Source: Pseudoalteromonas sp. MEBiC 03607
GTDB taxonomy: Bacteria > Pseudomonadota > Gammaproteobacteria > Enterobacterales > Alteromonadaceae
Direction: 5' to 3'
Length of the DNA: 64,000 bases
NCBI RefSeq assembly: GCF_004792295.1
Contig: NZ_SRRY01000002.1
Location: 372,001-436,000 of the forward strand
Below, one piece after another: positions 21,924-53,733 of this stretch. Numbering within the stretch: the first letter of the stretch is position 1; the number at the start of each line of letters is the position of its first letter. The position numbers and the translations under genes are program-made. The notes beneath the pieces are model-generated. The model was not told the origin of the DNA. It made no database searches and saw only the letters and a list, made by a program, of their open reading frames with translations.

Positions 21924-22011
21924 TTAATTAAAGTTCAATGTAAGGTCAACATATAAGTGAAATAAATATTTAAAACAACAGGTGATAAGGTTAAACTTAG
22001 GGAATCTATAT

Positions 22012-22030
22012 GTAAGATGTGTTCCTATGA
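22012..22030 (+). repeat. Ter-like site 3, overlapping the tus start
   Basis: GTAAGATGTGTTCCTATGA, opposite in orientation to sites 1 and 2 and covering the tus start codon. In E. coli TerB overlaps the tus promoter and Tus represses its own synthesis; the same autoregulation is inferred here. Confidence 0.7.
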
Positions 22031-22902
22031 GTACTAAACTTGAAATTCGCAGTCAGTTTGATTTAGTTAATGAGTTAACCCACCTATTTTGTGATGAATT
22101 AAAACAGCTTGATTTTCATAAAGCGTCATATTATCAATTACCTGATATTGATATAAACGATGAGAAAAAAGTCCCTTCGGCAATACCTGTCATAAAAGTT
22201 GAAGGTGCTGATGCACAAAAACAAATCATTAATTCGTTTGGTGATTTTTATAAAAAGACGGGCTTAAGTAGTCGAGTACTTAAAAGGCATCCTGGCTTAT
22301 TAGTGCTTAAAGATGTTGATAAACAAAATATTACCGCCAGAATCAATCAAATAAACAAAGCCAAAGCTGATTTTAAAAATTGTGTGTTGGCTATCGATAA
22401 TAACGATGCACGCTTTGAAGCTGTTCATAATGCTGTGCCAAACTTAATTACTTTAGCTGCCTATCGTAAAATTCACTATGAAACAGAGTCACCCTACTCT
22501 GTTCGTTTTACTTGGATGCACAAACATGCAACTAAAACACTAACGAAAAAAATGGCACTCGCTATGTTAGAAAAGTCTGCAAGTTATTCAAATCCAAGAA
22601 TGATCGATCAACATTCTTGGCAAGCACTTGTTGCACAAGAACAAAGTCGTGTTGCAAGTTTAGGTGATAAAGAGAAATTACGAATTCGTAGACCAACAAG
22701 GGTAAGCCCACAAGTTAATGTGAGATACACTGCTCAGAACAGATATCATGTTAGCGCTGCTTTACCATTTATATTGATAAACCCTGAACCAGTTGTAAAA
22801 CTTGGTACGTTATCTGATTATCAAAAACCACAAAGCCATCCTCGTAAAAGAGAATATGATTTCTTAGTTGATAGACTTTACTTAGAACAAGTAACAGATT
22901 GA
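22027..22902 (+). CDS. tus: Replication terminus site-binding protein Tus
   Basis: 291 residues from the ATG at 22027 (MSTKLEIRSQFDLVNELT), which aligns with the start of E. coli Tus (309 residues); a GTG frame from 21982 would run through a Ter site. Matching blocks are visible: AVHNAVPNLITLAAYRKI against WVHRHLPGLITLNAYRTL of E. coli, RFTWMHKHATKTL against RFGWANKHIIKNL, and KLRIRRPTRVSPQVNVRY against KLKIKRPVKVQPIARVWY. Tus binds Ter DNA and stops replication forks from one side only. It lies 1.3 kb from rep and about 2 kb from the origin, which is unusual. Confidence 0.92.
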   Translation: MSTKLEIRSQFDLVNELTHLFCDELKQLDFHKASYYQLPDIDINDEKKVPSAIPVIKVEGADAQKQIINSFGDFYKKTGLSSRVLKRHPGLLVLKDVDKQNITARINQINKAKADFKNCVLAIDNNDARFEAVHNAVPNLITLAAYRKIHYETESPYSVRFTWMHKHATKTLTKKMALAMLEKSASYSNPRMIDQHSWQALVAQEQSRVASLGDKEKLRIRRPTRVSPQVNVRYTAQNRYHVSAALPFILINPEPVVKLGTLSDYQKPQSHPRKREYDFLVDRLYLEQVTD

Positions 22903-22960: not shown

Positions 22961-24175
22961 TTAGTCTTCTACTATTTCTTCAATTTTATCTTCATCAATT
23001 AAAACTGCATTCTCAACAATGCGTTTGCCACCTTGTATTTCGATTCGTTTATTATGCTTATTTAGTGTAAGAATCTCGTCACAAAATTGGTCAGACGGAT
23101 GCATCTCGTAAGTGTAATCAATAATATTACCTGTTTTATCATCTTTAACGTTGGTAATGTTATATTCTGAAATTGCACCTTTTTCGATCAAATCTTTCAT
23201 TGTTGTCGTCATATCACGACGCAATGCTTTCAATTTGTTTTCTGTTATTTCATCTGTCGAATAGATTGAGCCGTACTTTTCCATAATTGATAAAAGTCGA
23301 AAATGGTAGGTTTTACCCGGTGCAGCATAACGCCATAAATGATACAAACGCAGCATCATCCAACGTGATAAACCACGCTTTAATTCTTGTGCACTATTAA
23401 AGTAATAACCTTTATATTCAAGATTATCGATCATGTTATGTACGAACGCATTTAAACATGCAACACATTTTACGTTACCACCTTGACCTTTCTTGCCACT
23501 AAAGTGCAGTGACGATAAAAAGTTCATATTCGATTCGTAAAATGAATCATCAATATCAGAATTGCGGGTGTCGGTTGCTGAGTATCTAAATGAAAGTTTA
23601 GAACCTTGTAATGCTTCTAAAGATTCTTTAATTTGAGGATATGGCATCGACTGGCCAACAGCTTTCAGCTCTTGCGCCAATTCATTCATTGAAAAAACAA
23701 CCGCGTATTGAATACCCGATTTAAAATTAATTTTTACAATTTTACCTTTAGAAGCTAAACGGATCAGAGCTCGCTCGACTTTTTCTTCTCGGTCAGATGG
23801 CCAAACAAGATATTCTACATCTTCACCATCTTTACGAGTGCTTACTACCGCAGGTGTAATTTTTATTTCGCCATCATAAAGAATGCCGTCTACTTTTTCA
23901 GAGATTCTGCGTGTGACGATTGTTTTCTTTGGTGCTTCTTCAACCGGAAGCTTTTTATGACCGGAACGGACAAAACGTCCCCATAAATCATAATGATTAA
24001 ATGTATTTGAGTAAGCTCTCAAACCATGAGCAGCATTTTCAATTGAAACGCGCACATCTTTGTTGTCTGTAAATAGTGCTAGACTTTCATTATCTATTGC
24101 ACTTTCCACCCCGTGGATCTGCCCGCGTAATGTATCGGGTAAGTTATCTACCGAGATGTTGACCTTTCGGCTCAT
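22961..24175 (-). CDS. Plasmid-type replication initiator (Rep) of the chromid
   Basis: 404 residues from the ATG at 24175 (MSRKVNISVDNLPDTL); an alternative start at 24217 adds 14 residues. The middle has winged-helix-like segments (REEKVERALIRLASKGKIVKI, MPYPQIKESLEALQGSKLSF, LSRWMMLRLYHLWRYA) typical of iteron-binding initiators; I do not see RctB of Vibrio in it. It is transcribed away from an iteron-filled region of about 0.7 kb that contains DnaA boxes, with parAB on the other side. It should bind the 17-bp iterons and open the origin. Iterons next to its start suggest autorepression. Confidence 0.85.
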   Translation of the reverse strand: MSRKVNISVDNLPDTLRGQIHGVESAIDNESLALFTDNKDVRVSIENAAHGLRAYSNTFNHYDLWGRFVRSGHKKLPVEEAPKKTIVTRRISEKVDGILYDGEIKITPAVVSTRKDGEDVEYLVWPSDREEKVERALIRLASKGKIVKINFKSGIQYAVVFSMNELAQELKAVGQSMPYPQIKESLEALQGSKLSFRYSATDTRNSDIDDSFYESNMNFLSSLHFSGKKGQGGNVKCVACLNAFVHNMIDNLEYKGYYFNSAQELKRGLSRWMMLRLYHLWRYAAPGKTYHFRLLSIMEKYGSIYSTDEITENKLKALRRDMTTTMKDLIEKGAISEYNITNVKDDKTGNIIDYTYEMHPSDQFCDEILTLNKHNKRIEIQGGKRIVENAVLIDEDKIEEIVED

Positions 24176-24449
24176 TGTTCTTATTTCCAATTTTTCTTCG
24201 ACAGTTAATAACAACACATAAAACTTAAAAAGTTAAATGTTTAAGTTAGTAAAAACTTGATCCGATCTCAATTAATTTCTTAGGATCAGATTTATACTAA
24301 CTCTCTCGTAATTGCTAATTTTCAGATCAGATTTTTACTAAGTTATAGTTCATAGGTGGCGATTTTACTAACTCAGTTCAATTTATGTCCGGTGAATCTA
24401 CTTTTTAAGGCTTATTTACACGACATAAATCTCTATTTTTTAAATCGCA

Positions 24450-24458
24450 TGTGGATAA
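24450..24458 (-). promoter_or_regulatory. DnaA box
   Basis: TGTGGATAA, the exact reverse complement of the consensus TTATCCACA, inside the iteron cluster. Confidence 0.8.
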
Positions 24459-24620
24459 ACCAAGTTTAAGTTAGCATAGATCTGATCTGTACCAACTATA
24501 GATCAGATCCGTACTAACTAAATGCTTAATTTTACCTGGGTACCAGTGTATAACTTTCTAATTTAGTTAGTAAAATTTTGATCTACACAGACATAATTGT
24601 GAGTAATTTGGTGATTAAGC

Positions 24621-24629
24621 TGTGCATAA
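24621..24629 (-). promoter_or_regulatory. Second DnaA box
   Basis: TGTGCATAA, reverse complement TTATGCACA, fits TTATNCACA. It lies between two iterons. Confidence 0.6.
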
Positions 24630-24813
24630 CTAAAAAGCCCATTTTTTACTTAGTAATAAGCTGATCTGTGAGTAATAAGAGATCTGATCTTAACCAAGTA
24701 AAACTATGATCTGCTATTTTATAAAATATTCAATCAAATCAGCTAGATATTACACTATTTTAGCATCTTAACCTTATATACCTATATATTTAACCGATAT
24801 TAAACTTACTTAT

Positions 24814-24945: not shown

Positions 24946-26184
24946 ATGTCTATCAATAATAATGCGCTAGCCACTTATAGGTTACTAAAAGCGACAGCAG
25001 AAGTTGCTGAAAAATCGCTAGAAGGACGTATTCAACATTACCGTGCCCATCTTAAGTCTGAAGAAAAAGAACTTCGCACTTACACTCAAAAAGCCGCTGC
25101 TGATCTACTAGGTTGTAATAATCGCACCCTTAAAAGACGCCATGACAATGGTGACTTTGATGAATTAAATATCAAACGTGGCGCAAATGGTCACTATGCT
25201 TATACGTTAGTCAATATTTTTGCTATGGCAGATATCATGGATATCAAGCCAGATCACCGAACTCTAGATGATAAATTACAAGTTATTGTTATTAATTCAC
25301 TAAAAGGTGGATGTGGTAAAACAACTAGTATGGTTAATATAGCCGCAGCTCTGGCTACCACCAATATTAAACGTTATCGCATTGGTATCATTGACCTTGA
25401 CCCACAAGGTTCATCTTCAAGCTTTTTCCCACCAAGTGAACCTGATCCAATCACTGTAGGTGACTTAATGCGTGATTGTATTGAACTTGAAGATAATGAA
25501 ACCTGGGATGAATTAGTTACAAGCGCATTTCTACCTACTCATATTCCTAATATCCGTATCTTACCTTCAGGTATGGATGACTTTTATTTTGAGCATGAAA
25601 CAGCCACTTTACTAAAAGACAGCTCAAGCTACGATAAAACACGTCATTACCACAAGTTATTAGAGAAAGTTATTGAGCCAGTAAAAGATCAATTTGATAT
25701 CATTCTAATTGACACCGCTCCTTCTCTTAACTTTATGTTTTATAATGCATTAATGGCTTCTACATCAATGCTTATTCCTGTTCATCCAGAAGCAGTAGAC
25801 TTTGATGCCAACAATAAATATTTAAAACGATTAGGTGAGATATACCATACAGTTGCAGCCCTTGGTCACGAGGGATGGGATTTTATGCAGTTCTTAGTTA
25901 CTAACTATGTGAAAGGCAATCACTCACAGCGTGATATCGTAAAAGATGTACGTAGTGCCTTCGGTCGTCAAGTAATGAGTTACCCTATAAATCATAGTTC
26001 TGCTATAACAGCCAGCTCATCATCATTTAATACCATTTTTGATCAAAAGACTTCTGACAGCTTAGCAAGTCGCGAGTCACTATTACGTGCTCAAGAAAAT
26101 ATCAAAGATGTGGTTGATGAACTTGAAATGTTGATCAGATCTAACTGGCAATCAACTCAATCAACACTAAATACAGCTAAGTAA
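24946..26184 (+). CDS. parA: ParA partition ATPase (type Ia, P1-like)
   Basis: 412 residues with GAGGAAG before the ATG. An N-terminal HTH-like region (KAAADLLGCNNRTLKRRHDNGDF, about residues 48-70) precedes the deviant Walker A motif LKGGCGKTTSM (about 118-128), then DLDPQGSSSSF and DTAPSLNF. The size and N-terminal extension are those of P1/F-type ParA, which both moves plasmid DNA and represses its own operon. parB follows after 14 bases. It should segregate this replicon rather than the main chromosome. Confidence 0.93.
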   Translation: MSINNNALATYRLLKATAEVAEKSLEGRIQHYRAHLKSEEKELRTYTQKAAADLLGCNNRTLKRRHDNGDFDELNIKRGANGHYAYTLVNIFAMADIMDIKPDHRTLDDKLQVIVINSLKGGCGKTTSMVNIAAALATTNIKRYRIGIIDLDPQGSSSSFFPPSEPDPITVGDLMRDCIELEDNETWDELVTSAFLPTHIPNIRILPSGMDDFYFEHETATLLKDSSSYDKTRHYHKLLEKVIEPVKDQFDIILIDTAPSLNFMFYNALMASTSMLIPVHPEAVDFDANNKYLKRLGEIYHTVAALGHEGWDFMQFLVTNYVKGNHSQRDIVKDVRSAFGRQVMSYPINHSSAITASSSSFNTIFDQKTSDSLASRESLLRAQENIKDVVDELEMLIRSNWQSTQSTLNTAK

Positions 26185-26198
26185 GGTTAATAATAAAG

Positions 26199-27161
26199 AT
26201 GGCTAAAAAACGTAAAAATGATACCAGCTTAGATCCTTTTTCAACCTCTATTGAAAGTAGCAGTTTAGATGCATTGCTTGAAAAAGCATCTGCCGGTGAT
26301 GTTATCAGTATGCCTGCTCCTAGTGATCCTACCCGTCAAATTACGTTGGTATGTAAAGTGATCCCTAGCTCTGAAATTGAAGCTAAAACAAAGGTATATG
26401 GTAAAAACCGCCGAGTACAATCACTTCTAAACGAAAAGTCAGTTGCCGATATTCTACCTGCAATTGCTGAAGACGGTCGTAACCAGCACCCTGCCCTATG
26501 TTGGGATAAAGGTGACGAAATGCTTGTATTAGCAGGCTCACGTCGTCGTAAAGCCTGTATTTTAAGTAATTCTGATTACTTAGTATTAAGCTCTGCAGAC
26601 TTTACAGATCAAGATGCAAAAATTCTTGCCGTTTCTTCAGATCAATACATTGCCCCGAGTTTATGGGAGCTTGGTCAAGCATATCAACAGACCCGTGATG
26701 AGCTTATTGCTGAAGGTAAAAAAGGCTCTTATCGTGAAATTGCTGCTATTGAAGGCGTATCTCACACTGCAATTGCTGATGCAATCAAAGCTTATGAGAA
26801 TCTTCCAGCAACGGTTTTAAGCCTTTACCCTACTGCAAATCACGTAGGTCGTGAGGTCGCTAAAAAGCTCATAGCAGCTAAAGAGCGAGACGAGCAAGCG
26901 TTTACTCAGCTTGTTGACGAAATCAGTTCTGATGCTGAGCTTGTGGCTATTAGCAGTGATGACAAACGCGCTTTAGCTATCACTAAACGTTTAACGGCAG
27001 AGCCAGTATCGGCCAGTCGCCGTGAAGCAATACTTGATAGTGAATTTGTTGTTGTACAGCGCAACATTAAAAGTGGTGATCTATCTGTGAAAATAGATAA
27101 TAAAGTTATGACTGACAAACGCTTAGAGCAATTAACAAAGCTATTAAATAGCTTTAATTAG
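26199..27161 (+). CDS. parB: ParB partition protein
   Basis: 320 residues. The N-terminal ParB/Srx-like nuclease fold (QHPALCWDKGDEMLVLAGSRRRKACIL, about 103-129) contains the GSRRRKA box related to the CTP-binding motif. The HTH is SYREIAAIEGVSHTAIADAIKAY (about 178-200), and a C-terminal dimerisation domain follows. It binds centromere sites (parS) and activates ParA. Its stop codon is immediately followed by the second iteron cluster. The parS sites themselves were not identified. Confidence 0.92.
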   Translation: MAKKRKNDTSLDPFSTSIESSSLDALLEKASAGDVISMPAPSDPTRQITLVCKVIPSSEIEAKTKVYGKNRRVQSLLNEKSVADILPAIAEDGRNQHPALCWDKGDEMLVLAGSRRRKACILSNSDYLVLSSADFTDQDAKILAVSSDQYIAPSLWELGQAYQQTRDELIAEGKKGSYREIAAIEGVSHTAIADAIKAYENLPATVLSLYPTANHVGREVAKKLIAAKERDEQAFTQLVDEISSDAELVAISSDDKRALAITKRLTAEPVSASRREAILDSEFVVVQRNIKSGDLSVKIDNKVMTDKRLEQLTKLLNSFN

Positions 27162-27356
27162 TTAGTAAAATAACGATCTATCACGCTTTTTATGTTAGTA
27201 AAAGCGTGATCTGTTCTCCTGTTTAGTTAGTAAAATAATGATCTCATTTGGCAATAATCATAAGATCCTACCCTCTCAGATCACTATTTTACTAACTTAT
27301 AACCCCTTTACAGCTCTTTTTTGGTTTTCCTTACGTATCTTAGTAAAAAAGTGATC
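27162..27356. repeat. Iteron cluster B, downstream of parB
   Basis: Five near-perfect copies of the 17-bp iteron: plus strand 27162-27178, 27195-27211, 27227-27243 and 27340-27356; minus strand 27279-27295. The first begins one base after the parB stop. Iterons outside the core origin limit copy number in plasmids such as P1 (incA) by titrating or pairing Rep; the same role is inferred. Confidence 0.85.
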
Positions 27357-27576
27357 TGTAAAGCCCCTTCGTTGTTTATAAGTTGTTCATAACTTGTGCG
27401 ATTGCTGTTTGTTAAATCAGCTTTTTATGTTTTAAGTCGATTTGCTGTTTTATAAAACACTTTTTTACCAACTTATCAGCTCCAACCAGTCCAAAATGGC
27501 TTATTAGTGCTTTAGCTCATCGCCGATAGATCATATACTGGCAGAATTATTTTTTGTTTTTACTGCCAAAAACTTT
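27357..27576. other. Non-coding interval with a short palindrome
   Basis: Contains TGTTTTATAAAACA (27446-27459), a perfect 14-bp palindrome. A similar ATTTTATAAAAT lies at 24716-24727 before parA. Either could be a parS site, but AT-rich palindromes are common by chance. Confidence 0.35.
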
Positions 27577-30500
27577 ATGTCTGCTAACTTATCCAAAAAT
27601 GACTTATTAGCTATCTTTGAGGAAATCAAACAAGAGCAAGAAACCCAGTTTCCTCTTTCTGAACGATTCATCAAACAGCTATTTAAGCCGCATGTGTTAA
27701 GTAAAGCTAAAGAGTATCATCAGAACGGTCAAATCAACTGGTTAGAACACAATAGTGATTTTAGTGTTATAGATGCATCTATGTTTGGTAATGAAGGGAA
27801 TACATTTACCCAGCATATTGAGATCAGTAAATTACCAACTGGTTTTTCGGTTGATTCACACTGTACATGTGGTTCAAAAACAAAATGCCGCCACATCGCT
27901 GCAGTTTTACTTAAGTTAAAAATTGAACATTCAGGCAATTATGGCGAAGATTATATTATTAATGATTGGTTTAGTGAGCTTAAAACATTAAAGCAAGCAT
28001 CGAATGATACAGCCAAACAAGTTCTACTTTTTGTTTTAGATGTTGAAAAATCGGTTGTAACATTAACGCCTAAAATAGCTAATTTCGATCCCGATCATAA
28101 CTATACCCTTGGCCGCAACCTTACTGAACAACAATTAAATAGCTTTGTTACACCAACAGATTTACTAGAGTCTGACTTTCGACTTTATAGTTGGATCCGC
28201 TCGCAAAATGCCCTTGGTAAGTTAGAGCTTAAAGGTCAATGGGGGTTTGCGGCCCTGCAACAACTTATTGCCACACAGCGTTTATTTTTAGGTCGTTCTC
28301 GCCAAGCTATTAAAGCAGATACCATGCAAGCTCTAGAGTTTGATTGGAAACAAAATAAAGATCTAACCTCATTGAGTATGACACTCGCAGGTCAAGATAA
28401 TTGGTTATTATTAAAAACAACACCGCCTACTTACCTTGACCCTGATAAGCTAAAAGTCGGTCGCATCAGAACACCTTTAACTGCTGATGAAATTGCCTTA
28501 CTAGCAAATATGCCTGCAATACATAGTGAAAACTTTGATCGAGTCTATCAGCAGCTCAGTGATAATTTTGGTGAAGGGGTAATCCCTCATGCGTACAAAG
28601 AGAATAAAATTTGTAATGCGCGTAGTGTTTTTCCTGTCATTAGCTTAAATAATGATGAAGGAACTATTCGGTTATCACTTAAGTTTAATTACCAACGTTC
28701 TTTGTATGATTTAAGCCAAGCTCCTGCAGAGATTATTAATCAATCATTCGAGAATACCGTTGTAAATGAATTAATCAACCTTGGTTTTGAGCTTTGTAAA
28801 GGGGCTTTACAAACTGATTTTATATTTAATAAACAATCAGTTATACATGAGCACTGGTTAAAGTTTGAAATTATTCCAAACTTGTCAAAACGCTGTTGGA
28901 AAATTAACGACGATCTAAATGTAGGTAAAGCTTTAAAGCAACTTTCACTTCAAGTACAGCGCGGCAAAGGTCACCAAATAGTTAGTAAAATAGTGATCTC
29001 TGGTGTTAAGACGCAGCAGCTTTTCACTACTGATGATAAAAACTTTCAATCGCTTAACAGGCAAAGTGAGCAGTTCTTCTATTTTAATGTAGGCAAGCGT
29101 TTCGCTGTTATTAATAAAGCTGCCATAGCGCAACTAAATGAATACCGTGAACGTTTTGAACACATAAAAACACGTGATGAAATTTTAATGCCGCTGTCAT
29201 TTTTACCACAATTAATAGAGCAGACAGCCATTAAAGTGAATATTGTTGATGATACGCTTGATGCCTATTTAGCGGAATTAAGTCATTCGCAACAGTTAAT
29301 TAAAAAGTCCGATATTCAAGGATTAAACAAGGGAGTGCAGTTAAGAGAATATCAGCAACACGGTGTTGATTGGCTCAACTTTTTAAAACGACACCAACTA
29401 GGTGGGATTTTAGCTGATGACATGGGGCTAGGGAAAACCCTTCAAGTTATTGCCTTTTTGGCAAACGCAAAGCAATTACCTCAGGCAGGGCCAACTTTAA
29501 TTATTTGCCCTACCAGTTTGGTTGGAAACTGGCAAAGTGAAATTAATAAGTTTGCCAGCCACCTTAAAATTACTACCGTGTTTGGTGCTGCTCGCAGCGA
29601 GCAATTGCAGCAGTTATCACAGGCTGATTGTATTTTAACGACCTACCCTTTACTTAAACGTGATATCGCTTTTTATTCACCGCTGTATTTTGAAAATATT
29701 ATTCTTGATGAAGCGCAATACATTAAAAATGATGCTGCGCAGGTTTCGCGCTTAGTTAAACGACTTAATGCTGACTTTAAGTTATGTTTAAGTGGCACAC
29801 CTATCGAAAACAACCTCTTTGAGCTTAAGTCGTTACTTGATTTTGCTATGCCTTCTTTACTTGGCTCACAAGCTCATTACAAAGATTATTTCCAGACGCC
29901 GATTGAGCGTGATAACGATGTACAGCGTGCTGATGAATTGAAGTCTTTGATCATGCCATTCATCTTACGCCGCACTAAAGCACAGGTTACTCAAGAGCTA
30001 CCAGAAAAAACTGAGCTAATTAAAGAGTTTGAGTTTGAGGCAAAACAAAAAGAACTCTATACAGGAATTACAGAATCTCTTGAGCAAAAGCTTGTCGATT
30101 TATTTGCTCAGCAAGGTGTGCAAAAGAGTAAACTTGCGTTTTTAGATGCGTTATTAAAGTTACGCCAGATTTGTTGTCATCCAAAACTGATTGATCCAAG
30201 CTCTCAAGCTGGCAGCGCCAAGCTTGATTGGTTGTCTAAGCATTTACCAATTATGCTCAGTGAAGGTCGTAAGGTGATTATATTTAGTCAATTTACCATG
30301 GCGCTTGATGTCATTGCTGAACGATTAAATGAATTGGGTATCAGTTTTAGTATGCTCACAGGTCAAACGCGCCATCGCGATAAAGTAATTGCTGAGTTTA
30401 CTCAGGGAGATACCTCTGTATTCTTAATTAGTTTAAAGGCCGGAGGAACCGGTTTGAACTTAACTCAGGCCGATACAGTGATTCACTTTGATCCTTGGTG

Positions 30501-30720
30501 GAACCCTGCCGTAGAAAAACAAGCAACAGATAGAGCCTATCGAATTGGCCAAACTAACCCTGTGTTTGTTTATAAATTAATTATGGCCAACTCAATTGAA
30601 CAAAAAGTATTTAAAATGCAGCAGCATAAGCAAGCACTTGTTGATGCATTATTCACTGAAAAATCAATGAGTTTCACTCAGTTTGATGAAGATCAAATGC
30701 TTGCTCTGATAAAAAATTAA
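27577..30720 (+). CDS. SNF2-family DEAD/DEAH helicase with SWIM zinc finger
   Basis: 1047 residues. A SWIM zinc finger is near the N-terminus (Cys 96, Cys 98, Cys 104, His 106). The helicase core starts at about residue 590: Walker A DDMGLGKTLQV (about 612-622), DEAQ box LDEAQYIKN (about 710), SGTPIENN, and in the C-terminal lobe SLKAGGTGLNLTQADTVIHFDPWWNP and RAYRIGQ. Such proteins remodel protein-DNA complexes or RNA polymerase. It is the first gene right of the origin region and contains a perfect iteron at 28982-28998. The cellular role is not known from sequence. Confidence 0.9.
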   Translation: MSANLSKNDLLAIFEEIKQEQETQFPLSERFIKQLFKPHVLSKAKEYHQNGQINWLEHNSDFSVIDASMFGNEGNTFTQHIEISKLPTGFSVDSHCTCGSKTKCRHIAAVLLKLKIEHSGNYGEDYIINDWFSELKTLKQASNDTAKQVLLFVLDVEKSVVTLTPKIANFDPDHNYTLGRNLTEQQLNSFVTPTDLLESDFRLYSWIRSQNALGKLELKGQWGFAALQQLIATQRLFLGRSRQAIKADTMQALEFDWKQNKDLTSLSMTLAGQDNWLLLKTTPPTYLDPDKLKVGRIRTPLTADEIALLANMPAIHSENFDRVYQQLSDNFGEGVIPHAYKENKICNARSVFPVISLNNDEGTIRLSLKFNYQRSLYDLSQAPAEIINQSFENTVVNELINLGFELCKGALQTDFIFNKQSVIHEHWLKFEIIPNLSKRCWKINDDLNVGKALKQLSLQVQRGKGHQIVSKIVISGVKTQQLFTTDDKNFQSLNRQSEQFFYFNVGKRFAVINKAAIAQLNEYRERFEHIKTRDEILMPLSFLPQLIEQTAIKVNIVDDTLDAYLAELSHSQQLIKKSDIQGLNKGVQLREYQQHGVDWLNFLKRHQLGGILADDMGLGKTLQVIAFLANAKQLPQAGPTLIICPTSLVGNWQSEINKFASHLKITTVFGAARSEQLQQLSQADCILTTYPLLKRDIAFYSPLYFENIILDEAQYIKNDAAQVSRLVKRLNADFKLCLSGTPIENNLFELKSLLDFAMPSLLGSQAHYKDYFQTPIERDNDVQRADELKSLIMPFILRRTKAQVTQELPEKTELIKEFEFEAKQKELYTGITESLEQKLVDLFAQQGVQKSKLAFLDALLKLRQICCHPKLIDPSSQAGSAKLDWLSKHLPIMLSEGRKVIIFSQFTMALDVIAERLNELGISFSMLTGQTRHRDKVIAEFTQGDTSVFLISLKAGGTGLNLTQADTVIHFDPWWNPAVEKQATDRAYRIGQTNPVFVYKLIMANSIEQKVFKMQQHKQALVDALFTEKSMSFTQFDEDQMLALIKN
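28982..28998 (+). repeat. Iteron inside the SNF2 helicase gene
   Basis: TTAGTAAAATAGTGATC, a perfect match to the origin iteron consensus, in frame as V-S-K-I-V-I. It lies 1.6 kb from cluster B. Confidence 0.8.
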
Positions 30721-34866: not shown

Positions 34867-35499
34867 ATGGACGCAACGCATTGGCATCAACGTTGGGAAA
34901 ATAACGAAATAGGTTTTCACGAGGGAGACGTTAATCGTTATCTAGATCAGTATTTTACTAACTTAAATTTACAGCAAGGCGATACTGTTTTTGTGCCACT
35001 GTGCGGAAAAACTCACGACATTCATTATTTGCTAGCGCAAGGTATGCGTGTTGTAGGGGCTGAGCTTAGTGAAATTGCCATTAAGCAGTTATTTGATGAG
35101 TTAAAGCTTGAACCCGAAATTAGCCAACATGGCGAACTATTACGTTACCAAGGTGCAAATCTAACCGTTTGGGTAGGTGATATTTTTGCGCTTACCGCGA
35201 ATGAACTTGGCACTATCAACGCGGTTTATGACCGTGCCGCTTTAGTTGCGCTGCCAAAGCCGATGCGTATTCGATATACCCAACATTTACTAGAGTTGAC
35301 CAATAGGGCAAAGCAGTTAGTGGTGGTATTTGAGTATCAGCAAAGTGAGTTTTCGGGCCCGCCGTTTAGTGTGGTAGCCGATGAGCTACATCAGCACTAC
35401 GATGCTTTTTATCAACTAACATTACTGTGTAAAGAGCCTCTCGAAGGTGGCTTAAGAGGGCAAGTCCCTGCCATGAACGTAGCTTGGAGTCTAAGTTAG
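34867..35499 (+). CDS. tpm: Thiopurine S-methyltransferase
   Basis: 210 residues, usual length. Family signatures: WHQRWENNEIGFHEGDVN at the start, VPLCGKTHDIHYLLAQGMRVVGAELSEIAI (SAM binding) and DRAALVALPKPMRIRYT. It methylates thiopurines and, in marine bacteria, probably selenium or tellurium compounds (family knowledge). The reading frame contains an iteron-like motif at 34945-34961 (L-D-Q-Y-F-T). Confidence 0.92.
   Translation: MDATHWHQRWENNEIGFHEGDVNRYLDQYFTNLNLQQGDTVFVPLCGKTHDIHYLLAQGMRVVGAELSEIAIKQLFDELKLEPEISQHGELLRYQGANLTVWVGDIFALTANELGTINAVYDRAALVALPKPMRIRYTQHLLELTNRAKQLVVVFEYQQSEFSGPPFSVVADELHQHYDAFYQLTLLCKEPLEGGLRGQVPAMNVAWSLS
34945..34961 (-). repeat. Iteron inside tpm
   Basis: GATCAGTATTTTACTAA, the reverse of the consensus with GATC at the right spacing. 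7.6 kb from cluster B. Confidence 0.7.
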
Positions 35500-49519: not shown

Positions 49520-50101
49520 TTACCTTGCTAAAATTGTACGTATTTTACTACTAAGCTCAGGCAATACTTGTTGCTCAAACCACGGATTTTTCTTCAGCCA
49601 GATATTATTGCGAGGGCTTGGGTGAGGCAGTGGCAAGTAACTTGGCCAATATTCACGCCACGATTTTACTAACTCAGTTAAGGGTAGCTGCTTAGTGTGA
49701 GGCAAATGATATGCCTGCGCGTATTTACCTAAGATAATGGTGAGCTCAATATTATTGAGCTGCGCTAAAAGTTTTTCGCGCCATGCTACAGCGCACTCTT
49801 TTCTTGGCGGTAAATCGCCAGACTTGCCTTTGCCTGGGTAGCAAAAGCCCATCGGTAAAATAGCAAAATTGCAGTCATCGTAAAACTCATCGCTCGTTAC
49901 ACCAAGCCAAGAGCGAAGCCTTTGGCCACTTGCATCATCGAATGGTTTGCCACTTTCATGTACTTTAATCCCCGGGGCTTGACCGGCAATTAAAATGCGA
50001 GCTTGTGGGTTAAATTGAATAACAGGGCGTGCCCCAAGTGGTAAATGCGGTTCACAGATCACGCATTTACTAACTTGTTGTAATAACGATTGAGTACTCA
50101 T
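49520..50101 (-). CDS. Uracil-DNA glycosylase superfamily protein
   Basis: 193 residues. RILIAGQAPGIKVHESGKPFDDASGQRLRSWLG (about 34-66) is the active-site region of the UDG fold, with further conserved LPMGFCYPGKG and the C-terminal PLPHPSPRNN. Proteins of this subgroup have often unproved glycosylase activity. Its coding sequence carries an iteron at 50057-50073 (V-S-K-C-V-I) and a half copy at 49661-49679. Confidence 0.85.
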   Translation of the reverse strand: MSTQSLLQQVSKCVICEPHLPLGARPVIQFNPQARILIAGQAPGIKVHESGKPFDDASGQRLRSWLGVTSDEFYDDCNFAILPMGFCYPGKGKSGDLPPRKECAVAWREKLLAQLNNIELTIILGKYAQAYHLPHTKQLPLTELVKSWREYWPSYLPLPHPSPRNNIWLKKNPWFEQQVLPELSSKIRTILAR

Positions 50102-50120
50102 CAGTTAGTAAAAATATGAT

Positions 50121-50483
50121 CTATGCTTGTTTTGACCAAACAGCTAACTCATTACCACTTGGCTCTATGAAGTGAAAACGACAGCCTCCAGGAAAATCAA
50201 ACAAGGGCTTAATAATTGTGCCGCCGTGTTTTTCTACCTGCGCTTGAGTGTCTTTAATATTATTTGAATAAAGCACCAGTAGCGCGCCACCATTACTGGT
50301 TAAGCTAGTTAATGGCGCTTGATAAAAACCGCCATCAAGACCCGCAGATCCAGCGCTAAAAGCCGTATACTCAGGGCCATAATCGGTAAATTGCCATTTA
50401 AAAACCTGATGAAAAAATGCTTTTGTTGCAGCTAAATCTTTGGCGGCAAATTCAACATAATTTAAGCTATGGTGGTTCGACAT
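50121..50483 (-). CDS. VOC-family (glyoxalase/bleomycin-resistance) protein
   Basis: 120 residues in one betaalphabetabetabeta pair: SLNYVEFAAKDLAATKAFFHQVFKWQFTDYGPEYTAF and the closing FPGGCRFHFIEPSGNELAVW. Possible metal ligands include the Glu near the end. Typical single-domain member; substrate unknown. A full iteron lies between this gene and the UDG-like gene. Confidence 0.87.
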   Translation of the reverse strand: MSNHHSLNYVEFAAKDLAATKAFFHQVFKWQFTDYGPEYTAFSAGSAGLDGGFYQAPLTSLTSNGGALLVLYSNNIKDTQAQVEKHGGTIIKPLFDFPGGCRFHFIEPSGNELAVWSKQA

Positions 50484-50492
50484 AATCTGCTC

Positions 50493-51185
50493 CTATTTTA
50501 AACTATTCTCAAGCGCCATAGCGCAATGAACTGCTGTACTATCAAGTAATGGTATTGAGGTATCGGATTGTTGTACTAGTAATCCTATTTCTGTGCAGCC
50601 AAGAATAACCGCTTCTGCACCTTGCTGAGTTAGCTTATCAATAATAGTTAAATACTCAGCTTTGGATTCTGGCTTGATTATGCCTTTACATAGTTCATCA
50701 TAAATGATGCGGTGCACTGTTTCACGCCCCTGAACATCAGGGATTAACACGTCTTTTGCGAATTTATCTGCTAAACGCTGTTTGTAAAAGTCTTGTTCCA
50801 TAGTGAAGTGGGTACCCAACAAAGCCACTTTTTTAAAGTTGTGTTGGATCAGGTTTTCACCAACTGCATCGGCGATGTGTAACAAAGGAATTGCAACGGC
50901 TGCTTGTACTTGCTCTGCTAGTTTATGCATTGTATTGGTACAAATTAATAAATAATCTGCGCCAGCAGCTTCAACTTGTTTGGCTGCTTTAATGAGTATC
51001 TCGGCCATTTGTGGCCAATCTTGTTGCTGTTGTAGCGCTGCTATGCTGGCAAAATCGAGACTGACAAGCACTATCTTGGCACTGTGCAGCCCCCCCAGTT
51101 TATTTTTAATGCCTTGATTTAAAAGCTGGTAGTAACTTTGTGTAGACTCCCAACTCATGCCTCCGATTAAGCCTATCGTTTTCAT
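50493..51185 (-). CDS. Aspartate/glutamate racemase family protein
   Basis: 230 residues. MKTIGLIGGMSWESTQSYYQLLNQGI at the start and the two catalytic cysteines in LLICTNTMHKLA (near residue 84) and VILGCTEIGLLV (near 197) mark the family (compare YgeA). Racemises or isomerises an amino acid without cofactor. It is the first gene of a leftward group with the VOC gene (9-base gap). Confidence 0.9.
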   Translation of the reverse strand: MKTIGLIGGMSWESTQSYYQLLNQGIKNKLGGLHSAKIVLVSLDFASIAALQQQQDWPQMAEILIKAAKQVEAAGADYLLICTNTMHKLAEQVQAAVAIPLLHIADAVGENLIQHNFKKVALLGTHFTMEQDFYKQRLADKFAKDVLIPDVQGRETVHRIIYDELCKGIIKPESKAEYLTIIDKLTQQGAEAVILGCTEIGLLVQQSDTSIPLLDSTAVHCAMALENSLK

Positions 51186-51304
51186 TGCAACTCCCTTTGT
51201 ATTTACTTAACACCATATGATATTGCACAGAACAAAGCTAGCAGATCATTATTTTACTAACATAACGACTTAGTTGGTTCTGTTTCATTATTTAATACGT
51301 TTAT

Positions 51305-51323
51305 GCAAATGATAACTACTATC
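51305..51323. promoter_or_regulatory. Probable Fur box
   Basis: GCAAATGATAACTACTATC agrees with the Fur consensus GATAATGATAATCATTATC at 14 of 19 positions. It lies 63 bases before the iron-cluster gene at 51387. Confidence 0.65.
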
Positions 51324-51386
51324 TTTTCTGTTTGCTGGCGATATAATACGGGTTTTTCTTCTTGTGTTATTTTCTAAGGGATTATC

Positions 51387-51731
51387 ATGCATTCTCAATC
51401 ATTAGATGCAATGGCAGGCAATCGCCCTAAAAATACAGCTAGAAAGCGCTCTGTGAGCCTCTCTTATCGTGTTGCTGTGTTTTTGCGTTTTGTTGCAGCC
51501 ATCATGGGGGGTTACGCTTTTACCAGTGTACTTATTTCATTATTAGCTGTGTTACTACCTCTTAATAAACTCGACAGTGTGCTGTTGACCACGACTCTTT
51601 CGGTATTTTTTTACTGTTGCGTGTTTATTTGGGTGTTTGCCGTTAAGTCTTTGAAGACTGTTTGGATCACTATTTTACTAACTACTAGTGGGCAATTGCT
51701 GGCCCTTTCATTTATTAAGGGATGGCTATGA
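51387..51731 (+). CDS. DUF3649-type inner-membrane protein of an iron cluster
   Basis: 114 residues, with three to four membrane helices and a basic N-terminus (RPKNTARKRSVSLSYRVAVFLRF). First of three overlapping genes (DUF3649, PepSY, DUF3325), a set commonly found with siderophore receptors. A Fur-like box precedes it. Contains an iteron encoding W-I-T-I-L-L. It overlaps the next gene by 10 bases. Confidence 0.75.
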   Translation: MHSQSLDAMAGNRPKNTARKRSVSLSYRVAVFLRFVAAIMGGYAFTSVLISLLAVLLPLNKLDSVLLTTTLSVFFYCCVFIWVFAVKSLKTVWITILLTTSGQLLALSFIKGWL

Positions 51732-53329
51732 AAGAGAGTTTTTTCCGCTCCATGACATGGCTTCATACCTGGGTGGGCTTATTGGTATGCTGGTTATTAT
51801 TCTTGATATTTTTTGCAGGCACTATCAGCTTTTTCAAAGATGAAATCACTATTTGGGCTGAGCCCGAAACGCATCATGTAAAGCAGCAAGTGCAACGTGT
51901 TCAGTCTCAAGCTGAGCAAATTAATTATGTGTTTGCGCAATTACAGCAACAGGCACCTAATTCATTATCTTGGCGGATAAACTTACCTGAGCCGCGTAAC
52001 CCTGTTTTAAGCTATGGGTTTGCTGAGCCTAAACAGCCTGGTCAGCGCCGTGCACCTTTCAACTATACGCATCTAGATCCAAATACCTTAGAACAAATCC
52101 CCGAACCTCGGGAAACCAAGGGAGGTAACTTTTTCTATCGCTTGCACTTTGATTTACATTACATAGATGTATTTACTGCACGGATAATTGTTTGTTTAGC
52201 CTCATTATTTATGTTGGTAGCGCTTATAACAGGCATAGTGATCCACAAACGTATTTTTAAAGATATGTTTAGCTTTAGAGCAAACAAAGGCAGCCGAAGT
52301 TGGCTCGATGCACACAATGTTTCGTCAGTACTGGCACTGCCATTTCATATTATGATCACTTATACGGGGATTATCACTCTCATATTTATGTTGTTCCCCT
52401 ACCCTGCTGAAACTGTATATGAAGATGGCTTGAAGCAAATGTTTGAAGAAGCGTTACCCATCAACAAACGTGCAAAGCCTAGTGAAGAGCAGCGCCCCTT
52501 GATTGCAATTAACGACGTGTTAGATCAGATTTATACTAAGTCACCAAATGCCGACATTAGCTATGTGTTTGTAAGAAATGCCAATACAGCGACCTCGCAA
52601 ATAGTGGTTTATTTAGCAACCGGTAAAGATGTTGTAGATAACGGACCGCGCTACTTATTCAATGGTGTAACAGGTGAACTAGAAGCAAGTTCTGGTGAGG
52701 ATTGGAGCGCTTCAGCGCAGTTTTATGACTCAATGACCGCATTGCATAGTGCTCGCTTAGCGGAGCCTTTACTGCGTTGGTTGTATTTTTTCTGTGGCGT
52801 AGCTGGTTGTGCCATGATTGCTACAGGCTGCATTATGTGGGCTAAGCGCTTACGTGAGAGACTCAAAGCAGACCAAAAACCAAGCTTTGGACTTAAGCTG
52901 GTTGAGACACTAAATTTGGCCACACTGATGGGCTTACCTTTTGCTACAGCAGCTTTCTTTATTGCTAACCGTTTATTGCCTTTAGAGTTAGCTGAGCGTG
53001 CCGATAAAGAAATACTCGTGTTTTTCTTAGCTTGGCTGGCGATGCTAATTATCGCTGTGAGCGGCCGAGAAAAACATCATTGGCGCTATAGTGCATGGCT
53101 TAATGCCATAGCTTGCTTTTTAGTGCCGGTGGTAAATGCACTGACGACTGATGGTAATTGGATCACGTATTTACTAACTAAACAGTGGGCTTTATTCGGT
53201 ATCGATAGTGCGTTTATTTGTGCTGGGCTGCTGTTTTTACTACAAAGCAAAAAAATACCTAGCCATAAAACCGTGATAAATAAGGCTAAATCAAATAAAA
53301 ACAGGCTGTTAAAGGAGCAACAAGGATGA
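51722..53329 (+). CDS. PepSY-associated membrane protein (PiuB-like)
   Basis: 535 residues (start 51722, or the ATG at 51728). About four large membrane spans, with the PepSY-like domains in between: N-terminal SMTWLHTWVGLLVCWLLFLIFFAGTISFF, HFDLHYIDVFTARIIVCLASLFMLVALITGIVIHKRIF, and WLDAHNVSSVLALPFHIMITYTGIIT with conserved His. Such proteins reduce iron or siderophores at the inner membrane. Two iterons lie within its frame (52523 and 53161). Confidence 0.88.
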   Translation: MAMKESFFRSMTWLHTWVGLLVCWLLFLIFFAGTISFFKDEITIWAEPETHHVKQQVQRVQSQAEQINYVFAQLQQQAPNSLSWRINLPEPRNPVLSYGFAEPKQPGQRRAPFNYTHLDPNTLEQIPEPRETKGGNFFYRLHFDLHYIDVFTARIIVCLASLFMLVALITGIVIHKRIFKDMFSFRANKGSRSWLDAHNVSSVLALPFHIMITYTGIITLIFMLFPYPAETVYEDGLKQMFEEALPINKRAKPSEEQRPLIAINDVLDQIYTKSPNADISYVFVRNANTATSQIVVYLATGKDVVDNGPRYLFNGVTGELEASSGEDWSASAQFYDSMTALHSARLAEPLLRWLYFFCGVAGCAMIATGCIMWAKRLRERLKADQKPSFGLKLVETLNLATLMGLPFATAAFFIANRLLPLELAERADKEILVFFLAWLAMLIIAVSGREKHHWRYSAWLNAIACFLVPVVNALTTDGNWITYLLTKQWALFGIDSAFICAGLLFLLQSKKIPSHKTVINKAKSNKNRLLKEQQG

Positions 53330-53661
53330 TGGAGTTACTGCAATTTAGTCTCTGCTTTTTGGGGTTTAATTGTTTTGCACTTGCAAAGTTCAATCATTTT
53401 CGTGATGTGTTTAAAAAGAAATTAACCGAAAAACAGCGGCATAGCTTTTTGATGAGTGGCTGGATCACTATTTTACTAAGTTTGCTGCTTAGTGTGCTTA
53501 ATGATGGTGGTTATGGTGCTCTGCTGTTTTGTGGTTATATGGCATTAAGTGTAGTTATGCTCATGATTTTATACAGTTTTACCGTTTCTTGGGTGAAGTA
53601 TGTCAGTGTATTAACTATGTCTGTTTTGCTGTTAAGTGGCTTTTCAGTGATGATTTTATAG
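53326..53661 (+). CDS. DUF3325-type membrane protein
   Basis: 111 residues with three to four membrane helices; the typical third partner of the DUF3649-PepSY set. The start overlaps the PepSY stop (ATGA), indicating translational coupling. Its SGWITILLSLLLS stretch is encoded by an iteron. Exact function unknown; probably part of a ferric-siderophore reduction or uptake complex. Confidence 0.78.
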   Translation: MMELLQFSLCFLGFNCFALAKFNHFRDVFKKKLTEKQRHSFLMSGWITILLSLLLSVLNDGGYGALLFCGYMALSVVMLMILYSFTVSWVKYVSVLTMSVLLLSGFSVMIL

Positions 53662-53733
53662 TCTAGTTAGTAAAATGCTGATCTGATATCAACCGGCAAT
53701 AATATTTAATTAATCGAAATGATATAAAAAAAA

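Follow-up and report, generated by a model that had tools for sequence, protein, structure and literature searches.

Conserved off-origin arrays of a chromosome 2 origin motif, putatively bound by RepA, on both chromosomes of Pseudoalteromonas

Introduction

In Escherichia coli, the off-origin clusters of initiator sites datA and DARS2 tune the activity of the initiator, and in P1 incA and in iteron plasmids controlled by handcuffing, extra iterons outside the core origin exert negative control. The molecular details of how replication of large secondary replicons is timed against that of the main chromosome have been worked out in a few model organisms. Chromosome II (chrII) of Vibrio cholerae carries, about 40 kb from its origin, a locus that titrates the initiator RctB (PMC3937223). 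According to a 2026 survey, finding timers of secondary replicons in additional systems would broaden knowledge (PMC13342612). In Pseudoalteromonas, synchronous termination of the two chromosomes was measured and its authors suggested a signal from chromosome 1 (chr1); a similarity search was reported to give no site similar to crtS, a chromosome 1 element, on the main chromosome of the genus (PMC7858055). Here, we show that a 17-bp motif of the chromosome 2 (chr2) origin, TTAGTAAAAnnnTGATC, forms three conserved arrays away from that origin, two on chr2 and one on chr1. The analysis started from a cluster around a PepSY_TM gene in a stretch of 64,000 nucleotides (hereafter the window; chr2 positions 372001-436000) of Pseudoalteromonas sp. 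MEBiC 03607, whose genome consists of two contigs, chr1 of 3,732,376 bp and chr2 of 829,523 bp.

Results

With at most one mismatch, the motif was found 20 times in the window, where 0.07 occurrences were expected and none of 100 shuffles reached 20. Five copies lie between repA and parA at the chr2 origin (ori2), five follow parB, single copies occur at 28982 and 34945, and eight are gathered at 50057-53683. The first-pass annotation of this DNA had described these eight as full copies within 3.6 kb; their number and place were reproduced, while "full" proved slightly generous, as five are exact and three (50057, 52523 and 53161) carry one mismatch. It was right that five of the eight are located in genes (50057, 51665, 52523, 53161 and 53463), that the copy at 52523 is identical to the origin copy at 24284, and that a partial copy (49656-49672) shares 19 bases, the first flanking bases included, with the copy at 24355-24371. 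Three sites, at 51665, 53161 and 53463, encode W-I-T-(I/Y)-L-L in frame, a reading that allows the motif to hide within coding sequence.

The genome of MEBiC 03607 contains 16 exact copies, 14 on chr2, all of them in the window, and two on chr1, 168 bp apart. When two mismatches were permitted, chr2 gave 47 matches against 19 for the reversed motif, and 28 of the 47 fell in 396-449.5 kb of its 829.5 kb; an equal density over the whole genome, which would have spoken against a distinct locus, was thus not seen. A weight matrix built from 13 origin copies, which resolves strong but not weak sites from background, returned 38 matches on chr2 above 14 bits (5 for the reversed control) and 124 above 8 bits (84 for the control). 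At least one exact copy was present in 108 of 108 Pseudoalteromonas genomes, and the 30 repA loci, RepA being found in 31 of 32 genomes, carry 4-10 copies each. At the origin, the copies are short directional repeats adjoining the initiator gene, as are the iterons of Rep_3/RctB-like initiators. The GATC of the motif is retained in 183 of 189 sites at fba loci, 196 of 201 at PepSY_TM loci, 175 of 185 at repA loci and 112 of 165 at aceA loci.

The eight-copy cluster is centred on the PepSY_TM gene, a homologue of which (E <= 1e-100) was found in 24 of the 30 near-complete Pseudoalteromonas genomes searched. In all 24, 5-12 copies with up to two mismatches lie within 1.5 kb of the gene, amounting to 201 sites against 1 for the reversed motif, and the conservation in sister species that had been proposed as a check of the locus is therefore borne out. 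The gene is located 14-127 kb from repA in these genomes and in either orientation. Among 515 six-codon windows, the one starting at the site at 52523 ranked first for synonymous codon identity, with 0.926 compared with an overall value of 0.40 in 237 pairs of less than 70% identity. The GATC and ACTAR ends of this site are retained in 22 of 24 genomes while the intervening amino acids vary. No synonymous constraint across the genus was detected at the site at 53161, indicating that not every copy is under selection. These results demonstrate that the PepSY_TM cluster is selected DNA and not a product of chance. Skew, computed for the MEBiC 03607 genome alone, is above zero in every 20-kb bin of chr2 except one, and one fork was therefore taken to run rightwards from ori2. 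On this assumption, the fork would travel 22-29 kb from ori2 before meeting the cluster, which would be copied early in the chr2 cycle.

A second chr2 array is located at C2:448183-449104 between two convergent genes, aceA, for isocitrate lyase, and a gene for an S9 peptidase (Pfam names), with one copy inside the latter, and about 50 kb from ori2 along the rightward fork suggested by skew. Three or more copies were found at aceA in 28 of 30 genomes, with 165 sites against 8 in the control. Taken together, the off-origin arrays of chr2 lie 10-147 kb from repA.

Both exact chr1 matches belong to a third array, a mirror arrangement of three minus-strand and three plus-strand sites at C1:3483784-3484030, in which same-strand neighbours are 31 bp apart and the outermost sites carry two to three mismatches. 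It follows fba, the gene for class II fructose-bisphosphate aldolase, on the downstream side and precedes a porin gene. We examined fba in the 32 of 108 genus genomes assembled into 1-4 contigs, the other 76 being covered by pattern searches alone. An array was present within about 2.5 kb of fba in all 32, and when fba is read forward, minus sites preceded plus sites in every case. These arrays are intergenic, contain several GATC and consist of 1-5 sites on one strand and then 1-4 on the opposite strand, with a spacing of mostly about 31 bp; the fba loci gave 184 sites, compared with 10 matches of the reversed motif in a larger stretch. In genomes G043 and G102, an inserted gene stands between fba and the array, which is about 2.0-2.3 kb away. 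Since a porin homologue follows the array in only 17 of 32 genomes and the retrieved fba stretches of the remaining 15 gave none, the neighbour that stays constant is fba rather than the porin gene. The array is also contained in each of five additional Pseudoalteromonas fba records, whereas none of 75 fba loci of other genera (five of them incomplete), which are the non-Pseudoalteromonas members of the best 80 of 589 confirmed relatives, has two sites. A search for the 31-bp tandem pattern, which is blind to arrays of different spacing, was positive in 14 of 16 Pseudoalteromonas genomes and in 0 of 279 genomes from 51 other genera, and a looser genus-wide search detected a tandem pair on either chromosome in 95 of 108 genomes.

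At the centre of the mirror array, the IHF consensus was perfect in 10 of 32 genomes (0.34 expected) and within one mismatch in 23 (5.8 expected), leaving nine centres without it; the expectations come from mononucleotide shuffles and the sequences are related, and a central IHF site is accordingly a prediction for which the counts are suggestive. In G003, a single contig of 3.63 Mb, RepA was not found and the chr1 fba array is intact; its chr2 is either missing from the assembly or lost.

RepA, the chr2 initiator, consists of 418 amino acids (aa) and is predicted to adopt the tandem winged-helix fold of Rep_3/RctB-like initiators, matching Vibrio RctB, Pi and RepE in comparison lists that are dominated by co-crystals of one protein, RepE54. 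This relation is seen by fold comparison only; a PDB sequence search with the RepA profile returned nothing credible. RepA of at least 85% identity was found in all 16 Pseudoalteromonas genomes of the tandem-pattern search, and distant homologues (26-30%) in 9 of the 279 genomes of other genera. It was reported that repA plus ori2 supports replication (PMC7858055). A plasmid, pKCTC22325 (apparently the same as G013:C3), encodes a RepA paralogue with 52% identity and carries motif copies beside its repA. It has no ParB2 relative of 60% identity or more; its own ParB-like protein is 21% identical, and the motif copies are about 12 kb round the circular record from the ParB-like pair. This is one independent case of the motif accompanying repA rather than parB, the two genes always being together on chr2. 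From the predicted fold of RepA and from this plasmid, in which the motif stands beside repA and no close ParB2 is encoded, we infer that the PepSY_TM cluster is probably a conserved RepA-binding locus. The idea of a remote Rep-type locus within coding sequence, put forward in the first-pass annotation, is well supported by the sequence data as to location, conservation and likely binder. The interpretation given there, in which the locus would also titrate or pair Rep, is thus supported in part.

Some further relatives of RepA were observed. The chr2 RepA is detectably homologous to RepA of IncC plasmids and to initiators of Pseudomonas megaplasmids; the available text of PMC7858055 states that it has no significant match outside the genus. 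The 144-kb plasmid recorded as NZ_CP027525.1 and as G013:C3 has, besides the RepA paralogue with the chr2 motif, its own gene for a terminus-binding protein. On chr2 of G060, a second RepA homologue (C2:15739-16737; 29% identical) has no motif copies nearby and is perhaps an integrated plasmid.

Discussion

The positions and conservation of the three arrays, the selection on the DNA of one coding site, the co-occurrence within the genus and the predicted fold of RepA are established here. We consider it rather probable that the 17-bp motif is the iteron of RepA and that the PepSY_TM, aceA and fba loci are conserved off-origin RepA arrays that work in the following way. The PepSY_TM and aceA arrays would be replicated soon after ori2 fires, so that the number of RepA sites would rise at once, and they would take up RepA, or pair with ori2 through it, and prevent a second start, a role like the one proposed for the datA-like chrII locus of V. 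cholerae. The fba array on chr1, copied between one-fifth and less than one-half of the way along the chromosome arm, would signal ori2 to start, with the result that both chromosomes finish together. Because GATC ends most sites, a change in its methylation as the fork passes is a natural candidate for the switch, and an IHF bend in the middle of the mirror array could make its two halves fold onto each other. Tentatively, and with somewhat more doubt than confidence, we propose that these arrays make up an inter-chromosome timer that evolved independently of Vibrio and is built from the iterons of the chromid initiator. The fba array would hold RepA or handcuff ori2 until the chr1 fork passes and leaves the GATC-ended sites hemimethylated; the PepSY_TM and aceA arrays would then take up RepA and block re-initiation, the cluster in the window being the second half of the circuit. 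The fba array is a candidate for the crtS-like timer that was sought, and not found, in Pseudoalteromonas.

The position of fba is in general compatible with the published synchrony of termination. In 30 genomes, fba lies 434-925 kb from dnaA and the array at 0.21-0.45 of the chr1 arm. Simultaneous completion of the two chromosomes would imply a delay of 244 kb on average (sd 127) from copying of the array to the start of chr2, positive in 29 of 30. This calculation excluded G003, in which no chr2 was found, and G105, whose chr1 is fragmented; the 3' end of fba, less than 2.5 kb from the array, was used as its position, and chr2 was assumed to be bidirectional in the two genomes where it is near 1.6 Mb, after PMC7858055, and unidirectional in the other 28. 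Across these 28, the fba-dnaA distance was not correlated with the distance predicted from synchrony (r 0.19, P 0.32). Such a test has little power, since fba keeps its position in any case and this position does not follow replicon sizes, and we therefore claim no more than general compatibility with termination synchrony.

Other observations also weigh against the proposal. The implied delay of G060 is negative. At the cut-off used, 6 of 30 genomes have no PepSY_TM homologue; at aceA, G040 has no site and G107 has one, and GATC is retained in only 112 of 165 sites there. Of four plasmids with a RepA paralogue that were examined, three (47-49% identical) lack any motif copy at up to two mismatches in the vicinity of repA, and other obvious repeats are seen in two of these three; pKCTC22325 carries two other initiator genes. 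Five copies lie immediately downstream of parB, where a partition site could be, and the fba array fronts a porin gene in MEBiC 03607 and 16 other genomes, where an operator role is possible. For V. cholerae, mutations in three prominent non-ori2 RctB sites were reported to have minimal effect and crtS does not consist of iterons (PMC11711613); deletion of the chrII-10 site gave no growth phenotype (PMC3937223).

Several of these points return in other explanations of the motif. Were it the parS site of ParB2, the clusters would be dispersed partition sites that anchor or spread ParB, the chr1 site linking the chromosomes in space. The region just past parB is a usual place for partition sites, ParB sites often lie dispersed across tens of kb close to an origin, and five copies directly follow parB2. 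The partition sites known for the family of ParB2 are palindromic, however, whereas TTAGTAAAAnnnTGATC is not a palindrome and has no dyad symmetry beyond its GATC; a separate palindrome, TRTTTTATAAAAYA, flanks parAB in MEBiC 03607; pKCTC22325 shares the motif and RepA but not ParB2, with the copies beside repA; and repA plus ori2 supports replication (PMC7858055). We regard a parS function as improbable. Even less credible, and in our view very improbable, is an operator of an ordinary transcription factor with incidental copies at the origin. The arrays do adjoin the metabolic genes fba and aceA, 17 of the 32 fba arrays stand before a porin homologue, and copies at the origin lie in front of repA. 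Against this reading stand the several copies inside coding sequence, the location of the aceA array between genes that converge, the presence of the fba array in 15 genomes with no porin homologue in reach, the copies beside a plasmid repA paralogue, and the lack of the array in the 75 fba records of other genera. Chance or a by-product of codon usage, to which the three in-frame W-I-T-(I/Y)-L-L readings might point, we count as refuted, given the expectation of 0.07 in the window, the reversed-motif control (201 sites against 1 over 24 genomes) and the synonymous constraint at 52523, where nucleotides are conserved despite amino-acid change. Tus/ter sites were considered, as tus is next to repA and ori2 is close to the terminus. 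They were rejected because the replicating origin holds the motif at its highest density and in both orientations, and because the fba array lies 0.21-0.45 of the way along the chr1 arm.

A closer alternative keeps RepA as the binder and denies the timing: all off-origin arrays, the one on chr1 included, would only titrate RepA and set its free level, as a buffer of copy number, and none would time chr2 replication. The off-origin chrII sites of V. cholerae are inhibitory (PMC3937223), crtS is another kind of site (PMC11711613), and the position of the chr1 array does not track replicon sizes. On the other hand, one orientation pattern and one neighbouring gene in 32 of 32 genomes exceed what simple titration needs, and it was from termination synchrony that the authors of PMC7858055 suggested a chr1 signal. 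We hold titration alone to be unlikely, though to be taken seriously.

Under the RepA-array proposal, the nearest counterpart of the PepSY_TM cluster would be the chrII locus of V. cholerae. Both have initiator-type sites tens of kb from the chr2 origin, with GATC in the iterons (PMC3937223); the sites are duplicated early in V. cholerae and, judged from skew, would be so here. The cluster in the window, with site numbers above chance outside the origin, resembles loci of the datA or V. cholerae chrII type. It differs in extending over 3.6 kb with one site type, partly in coding sequence, and in keeping one gene neighbourhood across the genus. The initiator also differs: RctB has 658 aa, and RepA appears from its predicted model to have no extra-core stretch as long as domain IV of RctB. 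In contrast to P1 incA, which adjoins its origin, the Pseudoalteromonas arrays lie 10-147 kb from repA or on another chromosome. The first-pass annotation had also likened the cluster to crtS; this likeness does not hold, because crtS is a chromosome 1 element, and the crtS-like candidate is the separate fba array outside the window. Like crtS, the fba array occupies one conserved chr1 locus (its uniqueness among chr1 clusters was checked in MEBiC 03607), is intergenic and GATC-bearing, and is found in a genus with synchronous termination; its mean implied delay of 244 kb compares with about 200 kb for crtS (PMC6090056). Unlike crtS, it arranges origin-type sites in mirror fashion, often around an IHF consensus, and its gene context is different; the crtS region holds one iteron-like hexamer (PMC3937223). 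Since no crtS-similar site on the main chromosome is reported in the available text of PMC7858055, we do not class the fba array as crtS. IHF takes part in datA and DARS2 (PMC4245941, PMC13036160), which act on the nucleotide state of DnaA, whereas the central IHF site of the fba array is a predicted one. To our knowledge, no nucleotide cycle has been described for RepA.

The claim that such a locus had not been described needs to be narrowed: the RctB-titrating locus of V. cholerae is a precedent for a remote site cluster, by analogy, whereas no description of the sites of this genus was found in the available texts of PMC7858055, PMC11711613, PMC6090056, PMC13342612, PMC8496264, PMC12053903 and PMC3937223, subscription journals being mostly outside the search. 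The same literature gave no description of a set of three conserved arrays outside the origin, all of one site type and one of them on chr1. Conserved landing-site clusters on both chromosomes could be how two chromosomes time their copying, and the question of chromosome coordination in Pseudoalteromonas becomes directly testable, with exact conserved DNA elements now available for manipulation in a non-Vibrio genus that has both uni- and bidirectional chromids. The site at 52523 is in addition a case of an initiator-type site retained inside coding sequence while the encoded amino acids vary.

Annotated features of the window

Table 1 Genes and motif copies in the window (window coordinates)
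Feature	Position	Strand	Remark
tus (replication terminus site-binding protein)	21982..22902	+	
repA, chr2 initiator	22961..24217	-	initiator fold by prediction; RctB domains 2-3 the best match among solved structures
ori2 motif group	24246..24711	.	repA-parA gap; five copies with at most one mismatch, one with two, plus weaker ones
parA2	24946..26184	+	
parB2	26199..27161	+	NCBIfam ParB/RepB/Spo0J plasmid partition model NF010252, score under cut-off
Five motif copies	27162..27356	.	immediately downstream of parB
SNF2-family helicase gene	27577-30720		
Motif copy, exact, single	28982..28998	+	inside SNF2-family helicase gene
Thiopurine-methyltransferase family gene	34867-35499		
Motif copy, exact, single	34945..34961	-	inside thiopurine-methyltransferase family gene
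Motif copy, one mismatch	50057..50073	-	inside uracil-DNA-glycosylase family gene 49520-50101
Motif copy, exact	50105..50121	+	intergenic, between two genes; overlaps last base of one open reading frame
Motif copy, exact	51244..51260	-	intergenic
Motif copy, exact	51665..51681	-	inside 114-aa open reading frame 51387-51731; in-frame reading W-I-T-I-L-L-T
PepSY_TM gene	51722..53329	+	centre of conserved array
Motif copy, one mismatch	52523..52539	-	inside PepSY_TM gene; top-ranked synonymous constraint
Motif copy, one mismatch	53161..53177	-	inside PepSY_TM gene; without genus-wide constraint
Motif copy, exact	53463..53479	-	inside DUF3325 gene 53326-53661; in-frame reading W-I-T-I-L-L-S
Motif copy, exact	53667..53683	+	intergenic, directly past DUF3325 gene

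The window holds repA, parA and parB together with tus, the SNF2-type helicase gene and rmuC, the same gene set as described for chr2 of Pseudoalteromonas (PMC7858055). Two perfect 14-bp palindromes, TRTTTTATAAAAYA, at 24715-24728 and 27446-27459 flank parAB and are the only two matches on chr2. A perfect palindrome of this kind was not seen in 29 other repA loci, in which the far side of parB falls outside the retrieved locus. In MEBiC 03607, the palindrome is a possible candidate for the partition site.

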